NCBI GenBank assembly: GCA_903871545.1
Contig: CAIQHG010000063.1
Location: 1-43,233, forward strand
Direction of reading: 5' to 3'
Source of the DNA: an uncultured Burkholderiales bacterium
Lineage (GTDB): Bacteria > Pseudomonadota > Gammaproteobacteria > Burkholderiales > Burkholderiaceae_C
DNA length: 43,233 bases
Both the position numbers and the translations under genes were made by a program. Below the pieces are notes generated by a model that made no database searches, was not told where the DNA came from, and saw only the letters and a program-made list of their open reading frames with translations. Below are positions 36,621-43,233 of this stretch, in pieces. Positions within the stretch are counted from its first letter, which is position 1; each line of letters begins with the position of its first letter.

Positions 36621-37199
36621 TTAACCTTTTGCGGGGACCATGGGATATTTGAATATATTTGTTGCCACGATGACCCGCCGGCTGTTGGTCGGCGGTACAT
36701 GGTGATTTAGGATTCCCGGGAACAAAACAAGCGAATTTTTGACGGGCTGCACCATAATTGAATTGGCAAAAATGATGGGCGCACAATTTGGTTCTGCCTC
36801 TAAGTAAACGACCGCTGAAAAATCTGCGGGGAAGTGGTTGTGAGGTACGGTTTGGTCCGCTTTCTCATAAACAGAACACCAACAATCTGCGGTAAAAAGA
36901 CCCACATTGATTTTTTCAAGATCGCAGGTCAAATGCTCCCTAGAAACTTGGTGTGCCACTTTTTCAAGTAATTGAGTAAGGGGAGTTAGCTTATTATTTA
37001 ATAGATGGCTTTTGTAAGGGCTTGAGTAAGTGGCTTGGACGTTGGAGGCCATAGGGTCTGGGTGTGATATCCGCAACTCATCTACCGCCTCCCTAGCCGC
37101 CGAGATCTCTTGTACGTGAGAACTAAGATCACAACAAAAGATGGGAAGGATAAGGGGTATATCTATTTTCTTTATATTCAATGAAATCCTAGGGCTCAT
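36621..37199 (-). CDS. Putative 2OG-Fe(II) oxygenase
   Basis: A 192-residue protein resembling the small 2-oxoglutarate/Fe(II) oxygenases of the TIGR02466/PF13759 kind. The second half has the double-stranded beta-helix pattern: WCSVYEKADQTVPHNHFPADFSAVVYLE with likely iron ligands His120 and His122, NSLVLFPGILNHHVPP with His166/His167, and SRRVIVATNI with Arg174/Arg175 for 2-oxoglutarate. Such genes are found in bacteria and in marine phages, and substrates are mostly unknown. There is no signal peptide. It converges with the MBL gene at six bases and diverges from the repeat-protein gene across an AT-rich gap. Family assignment is from pattern recognition, so it carries some doubt. Confidence 0.75.
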   Translation of the reverse strand: MSPRISLNIKKIDIPLILPIFCCDLSSHVQEISAAREAVDELRISHPDPMASNVQATYSSPYKSHLLNNKLTPLTQLLEKVAHQVSREHLTCDLEKINVGLFTADCWCSVYEKADQTVPHNHFPADFSAVVYLEAEPNCAPIIFANSIMVQPVKNSLVLFPGILNHHVPPTNSRRVIVATNIFKYPMVPAKG

Positions 37200-37475: not shown

Positions 37476-39464
37476 ATGTCCATAGAAGTTAATGACAATT
37501 CAAGTATCCAAACAGTTTTAAAGACTCCCAGGAAAGCTTTGTCTCGAGTCTTTGGGTTTGCTTTAGTTGTGTGTGTATGGGTGACTTGCTCAGTGGCTCA
37601 GGCTGACGATCCTAAAGAAACGTGGATACAGTATCCGCCTAGGGCTGCTGTCAAGCTCACTGAGCAAGTCCAAGCGTTTAAGGAAATGGAATTAGAGAAA
37701 AAGGGTGTTGCTGCTGGTGAGCTCAAAAAGCGTGAAGAAAAAATTGACCTGACACCCCTGAAAGAAACAAAACTAGAGTCCACTGAAAAACCACAAAGCG
37801 AAGAAAAGAAAATTGAGCCCCCCAAGCCTCGTGAGAGAAAGCTTTTGAGTCAGGATGAGTCTTGGGCTCAAGATCACAAGACAAAAACCACGACTCTAAA
37901 ATATGACGACGGCACCCTTGACTGGAAAGTGGACGTCATCGAACCTACCCCTGGACAGCCAACTTACAAAGCCGATATTCAATCGATTCCTATGAGCTAC
38001 GCAGATGGAACCCAATCCATTGTGACTAGAAAAGCCAAAAGTGTGGATCAACAGTGGGGAAGAGATCATTCAACTAAAACATTAATTTACAAATTTAGTG
38101 ATGGAACTTCCAACATTGAAATTAAAAATATTCCCAAAAAATACAGTCAACCTGAATTTAAGAACGGAATTGAAAAAATCACGATAACTTTTGGCGACGG
38201 TACTCAAAGAGTCGAGGAAAATGAGGCGATTGACCGTAAAACTATTTGGTCAAAAGATCATTTGGTTCAAACCATCATCTATTATTTCGAGGACGGGAAA
38301 AGCTTTGAGGAAAGAATTGAAACTCCAAGAGTTTTGAGCACTCCTATCTATAAAGATGATCAAGAAATTATTAAAGCTACTTACGGGGACGGTTTTACAC
38401 AGGAGATTATCGAAACTGCCGTGGATACTAAGGTAAGTTTTGCAAGCGATCATCAAACTAAAACGACAACTTATATTTTTAAAGACGGCACTATCAACGA
38501 GGTCGTATCCACGATCCCTAGGGATGAAGTAGCAAAGTCATATAAAGGCAATTTGCAAGTATTGACGTATTTGTACCCTGATGGCACAAAGACAGCGGTT
38601 ACCAAAAAAGCTGTTTCTGAAAAACTCTCTTGGTCTGAGGACCATTTGATAAAAACACTTGAGTATCAATTTGCCGATGGGTCTGTAAATAAAGTGGTCT
38701 CTGAGGTAAAGCCAGAAACATCTAAGCCCGTTTACAAGAAAAATTTACAATTTATCAATTATAAATTTGGGGACGGAACTACTAAATCGGTTGTAAATAA
38801 GGCGATATCTGAAGATACGAGTTGGTCGGAGAGCCGTCTTTACAGGACGGTGACCTATAAATTTGCCAACGGAGGTGTGAGCAGTGAGGAGTTTAGTGAG
38901 CCACAAAAACTTGCAGATAAAAAGAACACCGTCGCCGCGCTAGATAGTGAACCCAAGGTTAAGCTTGAAGCGGATAGAGAGCAAAAATTGGTACTAAACG
39001 TTGTAAAGGTAGACAACGTACCAGAAGATACAAAAACCAATCAAAATAACCGTGTCAGTCCAACAAAGTCTGCTGTAGGCGCAGAGCTTTTGACAAAGAA
39101 GTCTGAGGAATTTAGTTTTAAAAATATAATCAACAAGTTTTTAGATAAAAGTAGCGATGACGAGCAGATCAATGATCATAAGATTTCCAGCAACTCTGCC
39201 AATCAACCTGTCTACTTACAAGGCCTACAAATTATTACTAAGCCTGCAATTGATGGTAAAACCGTCACTCTTACCTACAAAGCAATTGACAAGGAGGAGA
39301 GTTGGAGTAATGATAAAAGTAAAAAAATTACGACTTATAAATTTGCTGATGGAACAGTCAATAAAGTTATTACTGACGTCAATAGCCAAGTGAGTAAAGC
39401 CCCTAAGCCCAACTTATTCACAGGCGACGAGGAATTAACACGCCGCACCCTTGCTGACGATTGA
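37476..39464 (+). CDS. Exported protein with 64-residue repeats, unknown family
   Basis: A 662-residue protein that I do not recognise. The N-terminus has a signal peptide (VFGFALVVCVWVTCSVAQA, cleavage near residue 43). A Lys/Glu/Pro-rich linker (about 60-125) follows. From Trp130 a tandem array begins: W-x2-DH-x2-KT, then Y-x-F-x-DG, then Y-K-x3-Q, then F/Y-x-DG. The lead aromatic falls at 130, 194, 258, 322, 386 and 450, exactly 64 apart. The sixth unit breaks off near 475; after about 96 other residues its second half resumes at 578 and a seventh unit starts at Trp610. No C-terminal anchor is seen. No Shine-Dalgarno precedes the ATG; a TTG at 37539, with AGGAAAG before it, would give a compact signal peptide. 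An extracellular or periplasmic structural or binding role is inference. Confidence 0.8.
   Translation: MSIEVNDNSSIQTVLKTPRKALSRVFGFALVVCVWVTCSVAQADDPKETWIQYPPRAAVKLTEQVQAFKEMELEKKGVAAGELKKREEKIDLTPLKETKLESTEKPQSEEKKIEPPKPRERKLLSQDESWAQDHKTKTTTLKYDDGTLDWKVDVIEPTPGQPTYKADIQSIPMSYADGTQSIVTRKAKSVDQQWGRDHSTKTLIYKFSDGTSNIEIKNIPKKYSQPEFKNGIEKITITFGDGTQRVEENEAIDRKTIWSKDHLVQTIIYYFEDGKSFEERIETPRVLSTPIYKDDQEIIKATYGDGFTQEIIETAVDTKVSFASDHQTKTTTYIFKDGTINEVVSTIPRDEVAKSYKGNLQVLTYLYPDGTKTAVTKKAVSEKLSWSEDHLIKTLEYQFADGSVNKVVSEVKPETSKPVYKKNLQFINYKFGDGTTKSVVNKAISEDTSWSESRLYRTVTYKFANGGVSSEEFSEPQKLADKKNTVAALDSEPKVKLEADREQKLVLNVVKVDNVPEDTKTNQNNRVSPTKSAVGAELLTKKSEEFSFKNIINKFLDKSSDDEQINDHKISSNSANQPVYLQGLQIITKPAIDGKTVTLTYKAIDKEESWSNDKSKKITTYKFADGTVNKVITDVNSQVSKAPKPNLFTGDEELTRRTLADD
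37863..39395 (+). repeat. 192-bp (64-residue) coding repeat array
   Basis: Units start at 37863, 38055, 38247, 38439, 38631 and 38823, then after an interruption at 39303. Each holds two Asp-Gly turns at +15 and +47 from the lead aromatic, i.e. 32 residues apart, so the array is also a 32-residue half-repeat. The units are diverged at the DNA level, which points to an old duplication kept by selection rather than a recent expansion. Confidence 0.85.
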
Positions 39465-39542: not shown

Positions 39543-40211
39543 ATGCAAACAGCTTTGGTTATCGGTGCATCTCGGGGGATAGGAAAAGAATTTGTCAGTC
39601 AACTTCTTCAGGGGAACTGGAGCGTCTACGCAAGTGCAAGGACTCCCAAAGACATTGAGCACCTAAACTCATTGGGGGCCAAGGGCATTGTTTTAGATGT
39701 TACCGATCAGGATTCACTAAGAAGTGCTCTGCTGTCTTTAAACAAAGTCAGTTTGAACTTGGTGATATATGTTGCAGGAATTTACGGACCAGAACAAGGC
39801 GCCACCCACGCACCCAGCGCCGCTGAATTTAACCAAGTCATGCATACCAATGTTCTTGGCGCAATGCAATCAATTGAATTGTTAGCGCCCGCCCTTGGCC
39901 TGAGTAAGGGCAAGTTCATTTTCATCAGTAGCTTAATGGGTAGCGTGTCTGCTACGCAAAGTAGTTTTGGTTGGGTTTACCGAAGCTCAAAAGCCGCATT
40001 AAATATGTGCGTTAAAGCGGCTAGCTTTGATTATCCAGACGTTATTTGTGCGCTCATGAATCCTGGTTGGGTCAGGACTGATATGGGTGGGAGCAACGCT
40101 TCCATCTCGGTCAACCAAAGTGTGTCTGGGATGCTTGATGTAATAAGTCGTTTATCGATTAAAGACTCAGGTAGCTTTCAAAGTTATGAGGGAAGGCCTA
40201 TGCAGTGGTAA
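39543..40211 (+). CDS. Short-chain dehydrogenase/reductase (SDR)
   Basis: Classical SDR oxidoreductase of 222 residues using NAD(P). The nucleotide loop GASRGIG (8-14), YVAGIYG (about 76-82, in place of NNAG), Asn103, the Ser at about 129-130 (IFISSLMGS) and the Tyr146-x3-Lys150 motif (YRSSK) make a complete active site. Arg after the loop (SARTP, about 31-35) suggests NADP preference. PGWVRTDMGG follows near the C-terminus. The sequence resembles the C-factor/short SDR group. AAAGGA precedes the ATG. It lies 78 bases after the repeat-protein gene on the same strand; a functional link is not evident. Confidence 0.9.
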   Translation: MQTALVIGASRGIGKEFVSQLLQGNWSVYASARTPKDIEHLNSLGAKGIVLDVTDQDSLRSALLSLNKVSLNLVIYVAGIYGPEQGATHAPSAAEFNQVMHTNVLGAMQSIELLAPALGLSKGKFIFISSLMGSVSATQSSFGWVYRSSKAALNMCVKAASFDYPDVICALMNPGWVRTDMGGSNASISVNQSVSGMLDVISRLSIKDSGSFQSYEGRPMQW

Positions 40212-41953: not shown

Positions 41954-43233
41954 TTAATTTAACAGCGAGAGACACTCCCCTCCTGGATAGGAGTAGGATT
42001 TAAAGTGTTTTATCCAATCCGTTGTGAGCTCTGATATTTTGAGGCTCTTAATTCCTCTCAAACTCTCCCCTGATAGCTTGGCAGCAGCTAGAAACGATTC
42101 GTTATCCTGGGTTCTCAAAATAAAATAGGCACCGTAATTGAGTGGCTCCAAATTGCTTGCGTCTTTAAAGATGAAGCAGCCGATATTATTAATTTTCCTA
42201 TCAATAAGTCGAGTGATGCCGGGGAATAAATTGACAGCTTGTTCAGTTGCAATGTCAGTTTTTGTTGAACTATGCGAATCAGGACTAAGCGAATCAGGAC
42301 TAAGAGTATTAGGATTAAGCGGAGATAGGCTCTGCGCATCAGGGGTTTGTGTATCAGAAATTTGTCTATCAGGAATCTTTGTAGTAATAGTCCAAGGCAT
42401 GACCTCTGGTGATATTGAGAGATCAATATCTTTGTTATCGTTGAATTGAATCAATACAGCCTTTCGATTTTCTTTGGCAATCAAAGCTTTGCGAAAATCT
42501 GAAAGTAAGGGGCCGACCAAATTACGCCATTTCACATAAGACTTACCCACTCCGTTTTGAACGTCACCAAAAATGAACTGTGGTTCAGGTATTCCGTAGA
42601 TGTATTCCACAAAGGCTTGAACAACTGGACTTTGCTCAAAACAGCTGCGTACATTAGAGGGGTTGTTATACCAAGAGCTATCTCCTCGAGCCTCATCAAT
42701 AAAGCTTTTCATGATGATTGCCGTATCTAAACTGCTGACATCCATTTTGCTCAGCTTCTCAAACCCAAGCGCACACGCAGTTTTAAATTCTTTATCAGAC
42801 GCGCGAGCCACTGCGATAAGCAAACTTGGTGAAGTATTATTAAGAGATTGAAGGAAATTTTCACTAACTCCTTGCATTTTAAAATTCAACACTCTTACGG
42901 GCGAGAGGTCCTCATTCAAATTAAGATTTTCAATAGAGCTGATGGTTGTATTGAATAAACTTCTTGTAAAGTTGAATGAAAACTTGACAGTAAAGAGCTT
43001 TGTTTTCTCAGCTTTCGGATCGTTTTGAAGTTGCTGAATTTTTTTATCTGTTAATTCACCCATGTTTTTGTTGGACCTATAAACCCCCACCTCAACAGAG
43101 TTGATTCCGCCCCGAAGCTGTGACCAGTTTAGGGGTATGGGTACTTTTGCATCTATCATCGCGTTCAGTAGCTTATTTGCACGAGTTTGAGTTTCAGATA
43201 TCACGGAGCTCCCCACTGTGCTTGTAATTCCTC
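41954..43233 (-). CDS. Unrecognised two-part protein, 5' end cut by window
   Basis: The frame is open to the right edge. A GTG at 43216 could start a 420-residue protein, but the true start may lie outside. I recognise no family. The N-terminal part (about 1-285 from that GTG) has a regular mix of strands and helices with no membrane segment. A low-complexity linker rich in Ser, Pro, Asp and Thr (about 285-325) is built of five-residue units such as IPDRQ, ISDTQ, TPDAQ and LSPDS. A C-terminal part of about 95 residues follows (LIDRKINNIGCFIFKD...), ending SYPGGECLSLLN. It is 71 bases upstream of the Bug gene on the same strand. Confidence 0.65.
   Translation of the reverse strand, partial: GITSTVGSSVISETQTRANKLLNAMIDAKVPIPLNWSQLRGGINSVEVGVYRSNKNMGELTDKKIQQLQNDPKAEKTKLFTVKFSFNFTRSLFNTTISSIENLNLNEDLSPVRVLNFKMQGVSENFLQSLNNTSPSLLIAVARASDKEFKTACALGFEKLSKMDVSSLDTAIIMKSFIDEARGDSSWYNNPSNVRSCFEQSPVVQAFVEYIYGIPEPQFIFGDVQNGVGKSYVKWRNLVGPLLSDFRKALIAKENRKAVLIQFNDNKDIDLSISPEVMPWTITTKIPDRQISDTQTPDAQSLSPLNPNTLSPDSLSPDSHSSTKTDIATEQAVNLFPGITRLIDRKINNIGCFIFKDASNLEPLNYGAYFILRTQDNESFLAAAKLSGESLRGIKSLKISELTTDWIKHFKSYSYPGGECLSLLN
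42274..42382. repeat. Two clusters of 15-bp tandem repeats in a linker
   Basis: GCGAATCAGGACTAA occurs at 42274-42288 and exactly again at 42289-42303, with a diverged third copy at 42304-42318. A second 15-bp family starting ATCAG runs through 42338-42352, 42353-42367 and 42368-42382. Both keep the reading frame, giving five-residue repeats in the linker of the unrecognised protein. Confidence 0.8.

Follow-up and report, generated by a model that had tools for sequence, protein, structure and literature searches.

RESULTS

A repeat-protein gene in a Burkholderiales contig

The window analyzed here is the whole 43,233-nucleotide stretch of contig CAIQHG010000063.1 from an uncultured Burkholderiales bacterium, and its subject is a forward-strand gene encoding a 662-residue protein (P0001), in which an original prediction made from the sequence had noticed a periodic repeat. 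The open reading frame and its periodicity were found to be real, at the place and of the length proposed. Each complete 64-residue repeat unit consists of two homologous 32-residue halves, termed A and B. The parts of the protein and the gene directly downstream are as follows.

37476..39464, + strand: repeat-protein gene, 662 amino acids (P0001), open reading frame with ATG start
37476..37604, + strand: predicted signal peptide, residues 1–43 (by eye; cleavage likely after A-Q-A)
37605..37706, + strand: conserved mature N terminus, residues 44–77 (motif and identity among relatives)
37707..37835, + strand: Lys/Glu-rich low-complexity linker, residues 78–120 (predicted local distance difference test score, pLDDT, below 50 for residues 76–117)
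37860..38051, + strand: repeat unit 1, residues 129–192 (register)
38052..38243, + strand: repeat unit 2, residues 193–256 (register; best conserved unit)
38244..38435, + strand: repeat unit 3, residues 257–320 (register)
38436..38627, + strand: repeat unit 4, residues 321–384 (register)
38628..38819, + strand: repeat unit 5, residues 385–448 (register)
38820..38915, + strand: half unit 6, A half only, residues 449–480 (Asn-Gly replaces Asp-Gly)
38916..39200, + strand: variable linker, residues 481–575 (pLDDT below 50 for residues 478–574; alignment of relatives)
39201..39395, + strand: degenerate C-terminal repeat unit, residues 576–640 (half-unit profiles, identity, pLDDT)
39396..39461, + strand: conserved C-terminal tail, residues 641–662 (50% identity)
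39543..40211, + strand: SDR-family oxidoreductase gene, a separate neighbor directly downstream (family scan, conserved context)

The predicted signal peptide contains a helix at residues 19–41 in the AlphaFold2 model, and the first 40 residues of P0001 gave no match to a regular expression for a lipobox-like tetrapeptide, in agreement with the earlier view of a signal peptide without an anchor. The mature N terminus carries the motif W-I-Q-Y-P-P-R at residues 50–56, followed by a predicted helix at 57–77. The variable linker at 481–575 is the place where, in the alignment, longer relatives have approximately two extra units. In the degenerate C-terminal unit, the A-half profile matches residues 609–640 (31.0 bits) and the B-half profile residues 577–607 (9.2 bits), Asp-Gly pairs stand at 593 and 625, and pLDDT is 73–83 over residues 581–630; two leucines of the tail, L654 and L659, are invariant in the alignment of relatives.

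The array keeps a gap-free register of 32 residues within 64

Units 1–5 (residues 129–448) are five complete 64-residue units that follow one another without a gap. The repeat had originally been called exact, a description that holds for register and not for letters, with units 1–5 being just 23–42% identical to one another. Likewise, the six lead positions named at that time (130, 194, 258, 322, 386, and 450; Trp, Trp, Trp, Phe, Trp, and Trp) are spaced by exactly 64 residues, but the array amounts to 5.5 units, the sixth being the half unit with Asn-Gly. The conserved columns that had been counted from the lead residue were recovered: Asp-Gly turns at +15 and +47 and Asp-His at +3/+4 in all five complete units, Lys-Thr at +7/+8 in four (unit 3 has Gln-Thr), aromatic residues at +11 in four and at +13, +34, and +45 in all five, and Gln at +39 in three, with Glu in the other two. 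Numbered from the start of the unit, the register profile of units 1–5 reads W2, D5, H6, Y13, F15, D17, G18, P34, Y36, Y47, D49, and G50, giving the consensus W..DH.TKT..Y.F.DGT for the A half and P.Y....E.I...Y.DG for the B half.

Autocorrelation of residues 116–485 under BLOSUM62 reached 1.55 at lag 64, 1.24 at lag 128, and 0.21 at lag 32, as compared to a best value at any lag of −0.23 in 300 shuffles, and 10 of the 12 Asp-Gly pairs are followed by a further Asp-Gly at a distance of exactly 32 residues, a count that never rose above 2 in 20,000 shuffles. Comparison of the A and B half profiles gave an hhalign probability of 82.5 (E 9.8e-6, 18 columns). Among the subtilase relatives described below, each half type can run in tandem alone (spacings measured, types assigned by eye), as seen for B-type units at a spacing of 30 in P0021 and for A-type units at approximately 33 in P0028 and P0030. 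These solitary runs, together with the kinship of A and B, indicate that the true unit is approximately 32 residues long and that 64 residues represent a fixed pair. A hidden Markov model trained with the half unit and the residues following it overrates residues 449–512; the model was retrained on units 1–5 from eight of the 16 aligned rows.

The repeat module is shared with transporters, proteases, and lipoproteins

Three protein searches, each scoring approximately 8,000 candidates and reporting E ≤ 0.001, yielded 87 records, with the query counted twice (P0001 and P0002). Classed by database annotation and repeat position, with 20 relatives re-scanned, the records comprise 17 stand-alone proteins, 17 TpsB transporters, 45 subtilases, four TbpB/FHBP-like lipoproteins (P0025, P0041, P0043, and P0046, the last below cut-off), one lipoprotein with the repeats ahead of FG-GAP repeats (P0066), and three unassigned records (P0061, P0067, and P0073) in which the repeats lie at the C terminus and no Pfam match exceeds the cut-off. 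In the TpsB transporters, three of which were re-scanned, the repeats precede POTRA_2 and ShlB; by Pfam scan, POTRA_2 and the ShlB barrel are present in P0018, P0019, and P0031 and absent from P0001. In the subtilases and lipoproteins, the module sits between the signal or lipid anchor and the effector domain. Neither this sharing nor the degenerate unit at 576–640 had been part of the original prediction.

The N-terminal motif, written as W/V/I/L-V/I/L-Q-Y/F-P-P and sought in the first 140 residues, occurs in all 17 stand-alone proteins, in 14 of the 17 TpsB records (sometimes twice), and in none of the 53 others; among the three TpsB records without it, a near variant is present in P0023 and in P0040, and a more distant variant in P0053. 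Of the 53 records outside the stand-alone and TpsB classes, 17 have a lipobox-like tetrapeptide (regular expression, first 40 residues) with most or all of their repeats behind it. It was found in no TpsB record and in one of the 17 stand-alone proteins (P0003), where it precedes the hydrophobic stretch. Eight of nine subtilase-type matches in genomes of the genus start at or beyond residue 277 of P0024, whose own repeats end near residue 281, and the module thus looks dispensable to that enzyme. Subtilase matches at L083–L088 come from six genomes of the genus, and five of them begin at or beyond the end of the P0024 repeats. A separate C-terminal motif, ALAP[VI]G.L[RK], is found in P0021–P0030 except P0022, P0023, and P0025, and also in the frame L081:3627-5249.

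The repeat is unnamed in the family libraries used

P0001 gave no significant match in Pfam (listed to an E of 10), in NCBIfam, or among PDB sequences, and neither MORN nor YD appears among the Pfam and NCBIfam matches listed for it, in line with the original prediction, which did not recognize the motif as a known repeat family. The 23-residue MORN period is absent, the period here being 32 within 64, and the MORN motifs GxG and YEGEW are both missing from the register profile of units 1–5. MORN was likewise absent from the Pfam matches listed for P0001 and for 10 relatives and from the best 25 of the 35 families matched by A3, an alignment of 15 gap-free three-unit windows whose overlap is at most a few end residues; the RHS/YD repeat was absent from the Pfam matches listed for P0001 and the 10 relatives. 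A3 replaced an earlier alignment, A2, whose 37 overlapping three-unit windows had spread over 388 columns, apparently through whole-unit shifts.

Several weak matches were considered. The best PDB profile match of A3, cellulosomal scaffoldin anchoring protein C (E 0.005, 74 columns; second-best match E 0.062), was judged to be due to chance, as was LRR_adjacent, which was found in eight of the 15 A3 pieces (best E 0.02). PF07202 (Tcp10_C) matched five of the 15 A3 members weakly (best E 0.004), the piece from the window not being among them. The most recurrent weak Pfam match in relatives was DUF6061 (PF19537), seen in P0008, P0012, P0015, P0018, and P0031 and in four of the 15 A3 members (best E 5.2e-5). 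It is absent from the Pfam listing of P0001 and reaches at most 22.0 bits in relatives, where bits are given, against a cut-off of 23.7; its matches span approximately 33–46 of its 81 positions, or about one unit. DUF6061 may, on sequence grounds, be a remote relative of the repeat, which would leave our overall interpretation unchanged. Precomputed protein-database annotation assigns DUF6061 to P0012 and PF28435 to both P0012 and P0015. Because PF28435 is missing from the Pfam copy used for our scans, a newer release may already name the 32-residue unit, and this annotation and the weak recurrence of DUF6061 both argue against a claim of newness. For the libraries used, the array is an unnamed, predicted hairpin-ladder repeat whose period and motifs do not fit MORN.

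Both ends and unit 2 are conserved while linkers drift

Mean pairwise identities were computed from 12 of the 16 aligned rows (P0005, P0006, P0007, and P0015 were excluded as close to rows that were kept). Unit 2 has the highest value (73%), with the remaining complete units at 53–65%; the C-terminal unit reaches 67%, N-terminal residues 44–76 reach 63%, and the tail 50%. Identity falls to 23% in the linker at 77–120 and 33% in the linker at 481–575, so that both ends and unit 2 are held while the linkers drift. The number of units ahead of the second linker varies among the Burkholderiales relatives, a comparison that the original prediction had proposed: it is 5.5 in the nearest relatives (P0003–P0007 and P0014) and 7.5 in the other nine stand-alone relatives. 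For 50 of 52 units in eight stand-alone proteins, the best match is the same-numbered unit of another protein, which rules out a recent amplification of the array and indicates that the array is old, with each position under its own constraint.

AlphaFold2 predicts a ladder of beta-hairpins

AlphaFold2 was run on the whole protein with 16 sequences and on a three-unit piece with 15 gap-free sequences. In the whole-protein model, pLDDT is 82–92 over residues 121–450 (units 1–5), 79–80 in the half unit, and below 50 in the linkers; the three-unit model has a pLDDT of 92.8, with no residue below 70, and a predicted template modeling score (pTM) of 0.57. Each predicted half has a pair of 7-residue strands joined by a 5-residue Asp-Gly loop and an extra strand, of six residues in A and mostly three in B, for a total of 33 predicted strands in the main array of the whole-protein model. 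Its secondary structure over residues 189–474 agrees with itself to 0.97 at lag 64 and 0.80 at lag 32, as compared to 0.70 at lags 31 and 33. The repeated architecture anticipated from the sequence is therefore present in the prediction; of the two folds then offered, solenoid or beta-hairpin, hairpins are what the model contains, while no entry titled beta-solenoid occurs among the 50 matches listed in each of four PDB structure searches. Searches of solved structures with both models gave no global match, and OspA single-layer sheets and beta-propellers recur with local fits. No chain of the TCP domain was found among the best 50 of 1191 Foldseek matches or the 50 listed in each of two further structure searches.

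We read the model as an open hairpin ladder of the MORN/TCP kind, whose strands would form a continuous sheet. Together with the likely signal peptide and the ten gap-free 32-residue units, this leads us to favor, with moderate confidence, a likely exported protein whose predicted free-standing ladder is probably a periplasmic spacer arm with conserved docking ends. Weighing against this reading is the low pTM of the whole-protein model (0.30). We consider it improbable that the units instead form separate small propeller-like blades or beads, each binding a ligand; propellers are among the recurrent local fits, and the strict register and the three-unit model are as described above for the ladder.

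Genomic context and distribution

The SDR gene lies downstream on the same strand in the window and in all six named relatives, each from an uncultured Burkholderiales bacterium; the L037 stretch starts inside the repeat gene. Across the five loci with upstream sequence, the upstream genes of the window recur solely at L036, the closest. When contigs were scanned with the single protein, none of 26 stretches contained a relative; a scan with the alignment recovered six in 40. A three-unit profile search detected repeats in nine of 84 genomes of the genus, comprising a stand-alone gene in seven, a repeat-bearing TpsB in G014 and G019 (G019 has both), and a subtilase lipoprotein in G102. In a sample of 399 genomes from the order, the only match besides the window's own genome was a doubtful one outside the genus, in G400 (E 5.7e-4); the frame that holds it is very long, none of its units scores more than 5 bits, and the match is treated as unproven. 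Scans for promoters (10 sites, 5.4 expected) and terminators (three, 2.2 expected) were not used as evidence.

In 17 of the 87 records the repeats stand ahead of POTRA_2 and ShlB, which raises the possibility that the stand-alone protein works as a free helper of two-partner secretion in the periplasm, catching unfolded TpsA on its strand edges and passing it to the POTRA domains of TpsB. Consistent with this, stand-alone and TpsB forms have the N-terminal motif in common, POTRA domains may generally bind partners through beta augmentation (PMC5422565), and a TpsB is encoded in six of the seven genomes with a stand-alone gene, the seventh being 68% complete. However, TpsB is common in the genus, occurring in 25 of 37 genomes with the window's own among them, and in none of the six genomes do a TpsB match and the stand-alone gene share a contig; the co-occurrence is therefore weak evidence. 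The three TpsBs of the window's genome lie on other contigs and lack the repeats, leaving the gene with no adjacent TpsB partner, and subtilases and lipoproteins carry the same repeats without a TpsB domain. We therefore regard this explanation as unlikely. As a separate observation, at L043:2-7500 the repeat-bearing TpsB gene of G019 is directly followed by a large frame that resembles its TpsA partner and is repetitive in its C-terminal part.

Alternatively, the hairpin array could leave the cell as a secreted adhesin or matrix protein that attaches to surfaces, sugars, or other cells. In lipoproteins the module is combined with TbpB/FHBP-like barrels or with FG-GAP repeats, both typical of surface proteins, and the signal peptide without an anchor would suit secretion. 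At the L036 locus, moreover, the repeat protein is 57% identical to its orthologue as compared to 65–96% for the neighboring genes compared, making it the fastest-changing protein there. In contrast, no export route past Sec is visible, no autotransporter or two-partner secretion domain appears among the Pfam matches of P0001, and both ends are conserved, unlike those of a tip-variable adhesin. An adhesin accordingly appears quite unlikely, and the spacer arm is retained as the preferred interpretation.

Other features of these loci were recorded. Very long frames, open at the start of the stretch, lie upstream of the repeat gene at L039:1-3873 (1290 amino acids) and L041:2-4534 (1510 amino acids); they begin with a different short repeat, AL[ST]TxQ[IV]xxL, and possibly encode giant surface proteins. 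Lipoprotein-like genes with a Cys-Gly-rich start are found directly upstream of the repeat gene at L039:4837-6153, L040:2-1258, and L041:5531-6808; such a gene is missing at that place in the window, and the gene there in L079 has a YGTT..GG tail. Within the window, an opposite-strand neighbor at 36621-37199 is weakly TIGR02466-like (39.5 bits, cut-off 62.5). A frame near the window end (41954-43216), apparently cut, has no NCBIfam match; its relatives are 572–580 amino acids long when complete, look exported, and occur in five of the six named loci.

DISCUSSION

In the spacer-arm reading, a variable number of repeats would separate conserved ends, much as the module, in other proteins, separates a working domain from its anchor or signal peptide. 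Partners would be held at the WIQYPPR end, at unit 2, and at the C-terminal unit with its tail, and the unit-specific conservation suggests that the arm may also bind partners. In the TpsB forms the arm should lie in the periplasm, as the POTRA domains do (PMC9355242); for the stand-alone protein, the periplasm would be the default destination.

MORN hairpins consist of two 6-residue strands, a 5-residue loop, and a 6-residue connection and build an elongated open sheet (PMC7725318). The predicted array resembles them in its tandem short-strand hairpins over a 5-residue loop with fixed aromatic residues (PMC7725318). It differs in its 32-residue unit with W..DH and Y.F.DGT and 7-residue strands, as compared to 23 residues, GxG and YEGEW, and 6-residue strands in MORN, and in the further short strands between its hairpins. 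MORN1 measures approximately 80 angstrom for nine two-strand repeats (PMC7725318); if the 33 predicted strands form one continuous sheet at that spacing, the arm would be approximately 15 nm long.

The TCP or G-box domain of CPAP is a single-layer meander of approximately 20 strands, often with PDG turns and with no hydrophobic core; one edge of the sheet binds a proline-rich peptide (PMC3776556). To the knowledge of the authors of that structure, no other natural protein has such a free-standing meander sheet without a core (PMC3776556). The predicted local topology is similar here, and some A3 pieces match Tcp10_C weakly; TCP belongs to a eukaryotic centriole protein and P0001 has a signal peptide and a strict 32/64 register. 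The single-layer sheet of Borrelia OspA, from which the engineered PSAM forms presumably derive, is a recurrent Foldseek match for both models, but it superposes at 20–32 angstrom and is capped by globular ends. Such end caps are stated for the engineered PSAM forms (PMC3776556).

With TpsB proteins of the FhaC/ShlB type, the likeness lies in the 17 relatives that carry repeats before POTRA_2/ShlB, 14 of them with the shared N-terminal motif, whereas P0001 has neither POTRA domains nor a barrel. WD40-Omp85 proteins also have a beta-repeat region ahead of an Omp85-type barrel (PMC4104836); theirs, however, are WD40 propellers in another subfamily, and no WD40 is among the Pfam matches listed here. 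A 2014 survey of the superfamily reported no further domain profiles linked to the TpsB barrel (PMC4104836). Titles and abstract openings of the papers listed gave no account of this repeat or of repeats before the POTRA domains of TpsB, which is no proof of absence.

By analogy with TCP, one could further imagine the stand-alone protein and the TpsB arm as a single periplasmic device, in which WIQYPPR ends dock onto the sheet edge of the next ladder and so form a track, attached to the outer membrane, that guides exported chains to two-partner secretion pores. We regard this as a long shot; if true, linked ladders would constitute a bacterial single-layer beta scaffold and a previously unknown accessory part of type Vb secretion.

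The repeat could merit a family entry of its own. TpsB transporters gain a long N-terminal region that goes unmentioned in the portion of the 2014 survey consulted (PMC4104836), which raises the question of whether the region before POTRA takes part in secretion. A bacterial hairpin ladder shuffled by evolution among proteases, surface lipoproteins, and a secretion pore would represent a natural, length-tunable protein ruler.
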